Shown: positions 37,197-39,788 of the stretch, piece by piece
Layout: every line of letters begins with the position of its first letter
How positions within the stretch are numbered: position 1 is the first letter of the stretch
Source: an uncultured Parafilimonas sp.
GTDB lineage: Bacteria; Bacteroidota; Bacteroidia; Chitinophagales; Chitinophagaceae
Reading direction: 5' to 3'
Assembly: GCA_903882935.1 (NCBI GenBank)
Contig: CAIRZB010000043.1
Span: 1 to 64,000, forward strand
Length of the DNA: 64,000 bases
Made by a program: the position numbers and the translations under genes
Notes under the pieces: generated by a model
The model's database searches: none
What the model was told of the DNA's origin: nothing
The model's input: only the letters and a program-made list of their open reading frames with translations

Positions 37197-37577
37197 CTAT
37201 GCTTCTACAACGGCTGTTTTGGTAACATAGTCGTGCAAAGTACGCTCAGTAAAAGCTATAAAAACGCAGTCTACAATCAATGTAAGGCGCAATAAACTGC
37301 GTACCAGTATTTGCCAAAACGCTGGGCGTTTGCCGTTTTCGGCCACTACTTTGCTCATGGTAAGCCATTTGGCAGGTGTACGGCCAAAAAACAGCTCAAA
37401 AAACAAATAATACAATACCATCACCAGCCAAAAAAAGTAATAAAAAGGCCAGCCATCTGTATGGTAGTAGTAGCTGCGAAAATTACTGGCGTAGTTGCAA
37501 ACCCAACTGATGCCAAAAATCAGCAATGTGTCAATAATAAAATTAAGAACCCGGGTGCCGATGCCTACATAATTCAT
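37197..37577 (-). CDS. RDD family membrane protein
   Basis: A 126-residue inner-membrane protein. It opens MNYVGIGTRVLNFIIDTLLI with the conserved Arg and Asp of the RDD motif in the first helix. Two more membrane helices follow (WPFYYFFWLVMVLYYLFFELF), then the family's F-x-G-R-T-P-A-K block, FFGRTPAKWLTMSKVV. The last part contains RSLLRLTLIVDCVFIAF. RDD proteins include Na+/H+ antiporters, but most are uncharacterised. The ATG at 37577 is preferred to an upstream start at 37688, since the RDD helix begins there and CATCTTTG, close to the -7 consensus, lies just before it. Confidence 0.88.
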   Translation of the reverse strand: MNYVGIGTRVLNFIIDTLLIFGISWVCNYASNFRSYYYHTDGWPFYYFFWLVMVLYYLFFELFFGRTPAKWLTMSKVVAENGKRPAFWQILVRSLLRLTLIVDCVFIAFTERTLHDYVTKTAVVEA

Positions 37578-37699
37578 ACTGCAAAGATGGGGGGAAAAGT
37601 TCATGGTTGGCCAAAAAAGTGCATAGTCCACGGTCGAGGGCCCATGGCAAATACATGGCGGGTGGATGGCTGAAAATCCCCATTCCATCGTAGATGCGC

Positions 37700-38145
37700 A
37701 ATCGGCCAGTAACGCATTGTATTAACCATGGACGATGGGCTATCGACTTTTTCCGATCATCAATAGACATTGAGGAAGTCCATATTCGATGACTAATCGG
37801 CCTTAATCCGCAGTGTATTAACTATGGGCCACTGACTATGGGCTATCGACTTTTTCCGATCATCAATAGCCACGGAGGAAGTCCATATTCATTGAGTAAT
37901 CGGCCTGTATCCGCATTGTATTAACTATGGACTATGGGCTATCGACTTTTTCCGATCGTCAATAGCTACGGAGGAAGTCCATATTCATTGAGTAATCGGC
38001 CTTTATCCGCATTGTATTAACTATGGATGATGGGCTATCGACTTTTTCCGATCGTCAATAGCCACGGAGGAAGTCCATATTCATTGAGTAATCGGCCTTT
38101 ATCCGCATTGTATTAACCATGGACCATGGACTATGGGCTATCGAC
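37700..38145. repeat. Tandem array of 96/103-base hairpin units
   Basis: Four full units plus partial ends: units begin with TATCGAC at 37741, 37844, 37940, 38036 and 38139 (periods 103, 96, 96, 103). Each holds GGGCTATCGAC, a TTTTTCCGATC loop and GTCAATAGCC, which form a hairpin, and an outer TATGGAC/GTCCATA pair. The 103-base units differ by one extra 7-base step of the CTATGGA/CCATGGA type. The array fills the space between the RDD start and the Nudix stop. It is not a CRISPR: the whole unit is repeated and there are no unique spacers. Confidence 0.85.
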
Positions 38146-38150
38146 TACTC

Positions 38151-38564
38151 CTACATCCCCCGCAAGTATTGTTGAATAATTTCCGTAATGGTTGGGTAGC
38201 TGTTGTTTAGGTAAATGTCCAATATCTCTTTTCTTACCCACTCAATTTCCGCTATGTATTCTTCGGTTTGTGGTACCAGTTTTTGCCCCGGTGCTGCGGC
38301 CATGGCATACCAATGGCTTTCCTTATGTACGTCATCGTTAATGCGTGGCTCAAAATAGTCGTGGTAGGTAATGCCTACAAAGCCCGTAATGGCAACTTCG
38401 GCCAGGCCGGTTTCTTCGCGCACCTCACGCAACGCGCATTCCTCAATACTCTCCCCGTCGTCTAGCTTCCCTTTCGGCAGGTCCCATTTGCCCCTGCGGA
38501 ATATCATCAGTATCTCGTCGTTTTCGTTGGTAATAATCCCGCCTGCGGCAATAATTTTTGTCAT
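38151..38564 (-). CDS. Nudix hydrolase
   Basis: A 137-residue pyrophosphohydrolase. The Nudix box spans residues 32-54: GKLDDGESIEEC followed by ALREVREETGL, with all metal-binding Glu residues present. It opens MTKIIAAGGIITNENDEILM. The C-terminal half (HDYFEPRINDDVHKESHWYA) suggests the NUDIX-domain group near diadenosine- or nucleotide-sugar hydrolases; the substrate cannot be set. It lies next to the tandem repeat array, which begins five bases beyond its stop. pyrE is divergent. Confidence 0.94.
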   Translation of the reverse strand: MTKIIAAGGIITNENDEILMIFRRGKWDLPKGKLDDGESIEECALREVREETGLAEVAITGFVGITYHDYFEPRINDDVHKESHWYAMAAAPGQKLVPQTEEYIAEIEWVRKEILDIYLNNSYPTITEIIQQYLRGM

Positions 38565-39627: not shown

Positions 39628-39634
39628 GGGCGGG

Positions 39635-39788
39635 AAACGTGAGACGGGAAACGTGAATGGGGAAACGTGAGACGTGAGACGTGAATCGTGAAACGTGAGA
39701 CGTGAATCGTGAAACGTGAATGGTGAAACGTGAAACGTGAGACGTGAGACGTGAATCGTGAATGGGGAAACGTGAAACGGCAATGGAG
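39635..39788. repeat. Microsatellite of 22 heptamers (AAACGTG/AGACGTG/AATCGTG)
   Basis: From 39635, 22 uninterrupted seven-base units keep strict register: AAACGTG, AGACGTG, AATCGTG and AATGGGG variants. The tract begins eight bases after the pyrE stop. On the minus strand it encodes an artificial HVSRFTFHDSRL-like peptide, which is not a real gene. It resembles the short tandemly repeated repetitive sequences known from cyanobacteria. Confidence 0.85.

Follow-up and report, generated by a model that had tools for sequence, protein, structure and literature searches.

Long simple sequence repeats with units of 5-11 nt have been surveyed across genomes; heptanucleotides are the most abundant of them in most genomes, and polymerase slippage has been proposed as their cause (Mrazek et al. 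2007, as summarized in PMC4679880 and PMC4692102). Rehm et al. (2015, PMC4692102) described heptamers of Xanthomonas (GGGAATC) and Nostoc (GGGGA(C/T)T), which show a preference for four units. Most of these repeats are intergenic. Those upstream of a gene lie within 50 bp of it on its non-coding strand, those downstream lie equally close on its coding strand, and convergent pairs occur in Xanthomonas (70 in Xcc, 75 in Xac). The paper's passages on these repeats relate the four units to the formation of G-quadruplexes, which do form in vitro, and report no function. MacGregor (2015, PMC4679880) described intergenic TAACTGA heptamers with a patchy distribution in Beggiatoaceae, Cyanobacteria and some Bacteroidetes. 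In the passages on Flexibacter litoralis, 12 of 14 sets point toward a start codon, whereas one that follows a stop codon has the reverse orientation, a placement that we read as outward too. A search of the literature on heptamer or similar repeats found no paper on the heptamer GTCSATR, the subject of this work.

The window analysed here is a stretch of 64,000 nucleotides from the genome of an uncultured Parafilimonas sp. It contains a tandem array at 37713-38148, consisting of four units of 96, 103, 96 and 96 bp followed by a partial copy, between two minus-strand genes identified by Pfam. Unit boundaries were counted from CGCATTG/CGCAGTG. The features of the locus are:

37197..37577, minus strand, RDD-family gene (Pfam PF06271, E 1e-12, residues 40-155 of a 163-aa ORF)
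37622..37647, minus strand, degenerate heptamer run with GTC on top at the left side of the gap, read from the sequence
37713..37808, plus strand, array unit 1, 96 bp, nested hairpin weak (fold z -0.28)
37809..37911, plus strand, array unit 2, 103 bp, with one extra heptamer (fold z -1.61)
37912..38007, plus strand, array unit 3, 96 bp (fold z -3.93)
38008..38103, plus strand, array unit 4, 96 bp (fold z -2.79)
38104..38148, plus strand, partial fifth copy, read from the sequence
38151..38564, minus strand, Nudix gene (Pfam PF00293, E 1.1e-23), the array starting just past its stop codon

An earlier note had described this region as a tandem array of 96/103-base units, which was borne out both by the unit register and by TRF (37713-38134, period 96, 4.3 copies, 89% matches, score 655). 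A repeat search of the window gave spacings of 103/96/96 in another register. The coordinates in that note are right, and the difference of exactly seven bases between units, also claimed there, holds as well, the surplus of unit 2 being one additional heptamer. The note further had four units filling the whole RDD-Nudix gap. The four units stand, but with the RDD gene starting at the methionine just ahead of the Pfam domain, where we infer its start (the longest ORF extends to 37688), the gap spans 37578-38150 and the array occupies only about three quarters of it. The left part of the gap carries the degenerate run at 37622-37647, within which 37622-37640 is one arm of an inverted repeat. 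Unit 3 contains the run AACTATGGACTATGGGCTATC at 37923-37943, and the partial fifth copy ends with a four-heptamer run (38115-38142) adjoining the end of the Nudix gene. The units differ among themselves, which argues against a simple assembly duplication.

The array probably arose when one intergenic heptamer element of a dispersed family was amplified locally, head to tail. The core of this family is a run of about four GTCSATR heptamers, and such runs often occur as inverted pairs around short filler DNA. We interpret the unit as a forward run joined by a short T-rich linker to a decayed reverse run, plus filler; a segment of this composition, about 96 bp long, would have been duplicated, most likely when near-identical heptamer runs misaligned during recombination or replication, and the 103-bp unit may reflect gain or loss of one heptamer. 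The array presumably has no dedicated RNA function. Our verdict is that it is an ordinary amplification, and that its repeat class is known but unexplained.

Amplification is favoured by the equality of the length step with one heptamer and by the distribution of the unit, which is private to the array while its heptamer core is dispersed. A DNA search with the array found no second copy of the 96-bp unit in the source genome or in 58 relatives; the other matches, in the source genome, G002 and G055, were heptamer stretches of 30-43 bp. The earlier note had proposed looking for the unit elsewhere, and what recurs is thus the related heptamer core, not the unit itself. We rejected AAATACATNGCGG, considered as a conserved tail behind the heptamers, as a family-wide part: the pattern occurs in eight places, namely five in the array, one in the left run of the gap and two elsewhere, with one match for the control.

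Also consistent with amplification, the array is absent from the same-genus genome G002, in which the Nudix gene and pyrE are adjacent and the gene beyond Nudix differs from that in the source genome. The pyrE-HMA gap measures 21 bp in G002. In the window it is 259 bp long and contains a second degenerate heptamer array (39634-39779, GAAACGT, 20.9 copies) directly behind pyrE.

Other arrays of a run plus filler exist as well. Further compound arrays in the source genome have spacings of 54 bp (three copies of a 97-nt reference), 50 bp (three times), 47 bp (three times) and 83 bp (twice), and run-plus-filler neighbours occur there at 40 and 72 bp. Three genome_contigs records (L140, L232 and L250) likewise contain compound arrays. 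The window array is one of several compound arrays. Against simple amplification stand the significant folding of two units and a pooled arm-matching P of 0.025, which would fit some hairpin function, and the narrow run length in copies elsewhere, which simple slippage would not predict.

The dispersed core is the degenerate heptamer GTCSATR (YATSGAC on the opposite strand). A three-heptamer pattern, searched with one mismatch allowed and controlled by the same pattern read backwards, gave 83 matches in the 5.5-Mb source genome (56 forward and 27 reverse), with none for the reversed control. Among 298 genomes of the order, 29 contained matches, the source genome included. The distribution is patchy: all five genomes of genus g54 matched, two of ten in g59 (with 111 matches and 1), and the single genome of g113 gave 371 matches, while many of the 29 had just one to five. 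The reversed control also matched in about 17 other genomes of this search, with up to 123 matches (G075), so low counts among the 298 genomes mean little. The control heptamer (GSTAYCR) gave 123 and 57 matches in G075 and G087, both of genus g88, and is apparently another heptamer family.

Among the matches listed for named genomes, about 50 of 80 titles were Bacteroidota by hand count, including Chitinophaga, Mucilaginibacter, Pedobacter, Sediminibacterium, Saprospiraceae and others, and the remainder were scattered; several of these records come from one shared assembly. Composition was examined in 402 heptamers beside perfect anchors, outside the selected anchor. Position 4 was 44% C and 43% G, position 7 was A in 55% and G in 38%, and each of the remaining five letters was 87-95% constant.

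Exactly four heptamers were present in 38 of 43 own runs (from 25 own neighbourhoods and the window) and in 105 of 168 genome_contigs runs, counts obtained with a search pattern that itself spans parts of four heptamers and could miss shorter runs. When run lengths were re-measured from a 14-nt anchor in any phase, they peaked at 30-31 nt (24 of 44 own and 53 of 160 genome_contigs runs); this peak comes from ascertained runs, although 22 nt would suffice for the pattern. Outside the selection, runs of at least 14 nt were few: four in own neighbourhoods and 33 in genome_contigs loci, with none in a further 400 kb of own sequence. Of these 33 unselected runs, 16 have the R as their first letter and 21 stop at the grid's first G or T. 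Given the 30-31 nt peak, a 30-bp motif, R(GTCSATR)4G, describes the core best, with four heptamers plus RG.

The runs are also oriented, as assessed with mechanically called ORFs. Within 60 bp of an ORF edge, 22 of 24 own runs and 79 of 95 genome_contigs runs read outward, whereas loci from relatives (L079-L107) showed no such tendency (10 of 19); runs inside ORFs or farther off were excluded (32 of 56, 75 of 170 and 14 of 33, respectively). A second method counted 37 outward versus 14 inward among genome_contigs family runs, and 2 versus 2 in four relatives. Opposite-orientation neighbours within 500 bp had the GTC side first in 9 of 10 own pairs, 31 of 31 genome_contigs pairs and one of two in L079-L107, and under a looser motif in 59 of 68. 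The left (37622-37647) and right (38115-38142) runs of the window both fit the orientation tendency. The pattern of 35 concordant versus 10 discordant edge runs for other heptamers suggests that orientation is general to them, with strand assigned by a GT/AC rule derived on families already inspected and many runs uncalled; their lengths had no sharp peak at four.

In several respects these runs resemble the repeats in the sections of PMC4692102 cited above. GTCSATR is a degenerate tandem heptamer preferring four units, its runs lie outward near gene edges, and its inverted pairs are convergent. It differs from the G-rich repeats of those sections in lacking quadruplex G-tracts, in its Bacteroidota hosts and in forming compound tandem arrays. 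None of the 56 own runs matched a four-G-tract pattern, nor did either strand of the window array. As repeats lacking G-tracts share the unit number, orientation and pairing, quadruplex formation cannot be the general cause of the four-unit preference. We therefore conclude that the GTCSATR family is a quadruplex-incapable variant of a known, unexplained class of heptamer repeats. Like TAACTGA in the sections of PMC4679880 devoted to it, GTCSATR is an intergenic heptamer with a patchy distribution and outward placement. Heptamers related to TAACTGA are seldom repeated according to those sections, whereas GTCSATR differs in sequence and is degenerate within a run; the four-unit preference is a trait of GTCSATR, with no such description in the passages on TAACTGA.

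Heptamer runs were compared at one site, the 140 bp ahead of menD, in four species of genus g54 (L374-L377). Two of them (G055 and G113) carry a GTCSATR run there, comprising 29 nt of period 7 and lying 20-21 bp before the start codon. The other two (G068 and G102) carry at the same site a CGTACAT run of 30 nt (4.3 copies) whose distance to the start codon is 38 bp. The intergenic DNA at menD in this genus is too diverged for an orthologous empty site to be defined.

An alternative is that the runs are candidate sites of a DNA-binding or directional DNA-processing protein, and that selection maintains the array as a cluster of them; the earlier note had likewise suggested a nucleoid or protein-binding array. 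Five nearly fixed letters and two twofold-degenerate positions (C/G at position 4, A/G at position 7) would suit protein binding, to judge from heptamer composition, and the length peak, the preferred end phases and the outward reading point in the same direction. We nevertheless regard this alternative as unlikely. No matching protein was found, the motif is patchy, in 29 of 298 genomes with the source genome included, and a single sequence-specific protein would not explain a different heptamer at menD in two sister species. For the runs themselves, protein binding, a directional border function and an end-repair process are candidate explanations.

The array, lying behind the Nudix gene, might instead be transcribed and act as a set of RNA hairpins with a role in termination or stability. 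The earlier note had each unit folding into a nested hairpin. Both stems are indeed present, but the units do not fold equally. Against shuffled sequences, z in the register of that note ranged from the -0.28 of unit 1 to the -3.93 of unit 3 (see the feature list), so that units 3 and 4 fold clearly and unit 2 weakly; the other register gave -0.32, -2.01, -1.62 and -1.20 for the four units, and the whole array gave -1.86 and -2.29. Across the four units, 89% of 64 pair cells remain paired. No compensatory change was seen in these four sequences, with none of 16 named pairs altered on both sides, a result that also fits amplification. The arms of inverted pairs in the source genome matched no better than shuffled partners (11 pairs, P 0.51), while P was 0.03 for 48 other pairs and 0.025 for all 59 pooled, a slight excess over chance that is uncorrected for genome composition. 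Rfam at the gathering score returned only two tRNAs elsewhere in the window and nothing on the array, and a known structured RNA family was rejected on this ground. Since the units fold unevenly and lack compensatory change, and the arms of own inverted pairs match no better than shuffled ones, selection for an RNA hairpin is not supported. Action of the array as repeated RNA hairpins, as proposed in the earlier note, is quite improbable.

A further possibility is that a known transposase mobilized a REP/BIME- or MITE-like element, or that a reverse transcriptase wrote the heptamers. REP, BIME and REPIN elements are extragenic and occur as inverted pairs and tandem clusters, and REPs are palindromes tied to RAYT transposases. 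GTCSATR elements share the extragenic placement, the inverted pairs and, in a manner resembling BIMEs, the tandem clusters, and the source genome has five Y1_Tnp matches. They differ in that the core consists of four direct heptads, with no palindromic unit bearing a conserved head. G314, with 111 motif matches, has no Y1_Tnp match, nor has the motif-bearing G129. A bacterial reverse transcriptase that makes tandem-repeat DNA does exist (DRT10, in the passages of PMC12632851 concerning it). RVT_1 was missing in six of nine motif-bearing genomes searched (G000, G055, G102, G113, G120 and G125), the 99% complete source genome among them, which also sets the family apart from telomerase-like or DRT repeat synthesis. 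Neither protein is therefore required, RAYT and reverse transcriptase were rejected as necessary drivers, and we consider this origin for the array very improbable.

Plain simple-sequence slippage, with no special element, is scarcely credible. In its favour, no repeat period is commoner than 7 in unselected stretches (400 kb of G000 gave 4 such runs and 0 for periods 5, 6 and 8-12 each; 400 kb of G314 gave 14 versus 7 for those periods combined), and some runs are long, the longest reaching 132 nt. Against it, slippage as proposed for long simple sequence repeats does not predict the fixed length or orientation of GTCSATR runs, with their 30-31 nt peak, preferred end phases and one-way pairing (31/31 and 9/10).

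Amplification of a heptamer element accounts for the array and leaves a wider question about the runs. We tentatively propose that four-step runs of about 30 bp are general elements at the outer borders of dispensable or inserted DNA, and that one directional process makes or recognises them and fixes their length and orientation while the heptamer is free. This idea has a low probability in our judgement, one that the finding of different heptamers in runs of about 30 nt at one menD site raised slightly. If it were true, the quadruplex would be incidental in Xanthomonas and the window array would be an amplified border element. The origin and positioning of such repeats are testable in culturable Bacteroidota, given that the motif occurs in records of Chitinophaga, Mucilaginibacter and Pedobacter.

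Contig C98 of the source genome (L119, 2495-3577) contains a pdeM gene (TIGR04123) with an in-frame interruption of about 125 codons. More than one heptamer family makes up the insert; GTCCATA lies near its left border and an AACCAGC-type run at its right. It is absent in all 12 relatives that have the gene, out of 18 searched; in each of the 12, five of which were aligned, the two matching pieces either overlap or are separated by no more than 24 nt.

Within the viral collection, 32 contigs (L342-L373) contain the three-heptamer pattern, with two GTC-first pairs among 35 runs. In L137, L143 and L244, from a Saprospiraceae bin and others, the filler between paired runs has a recurring hairpin-like stretch, GAGTGCC/GGCACTC.
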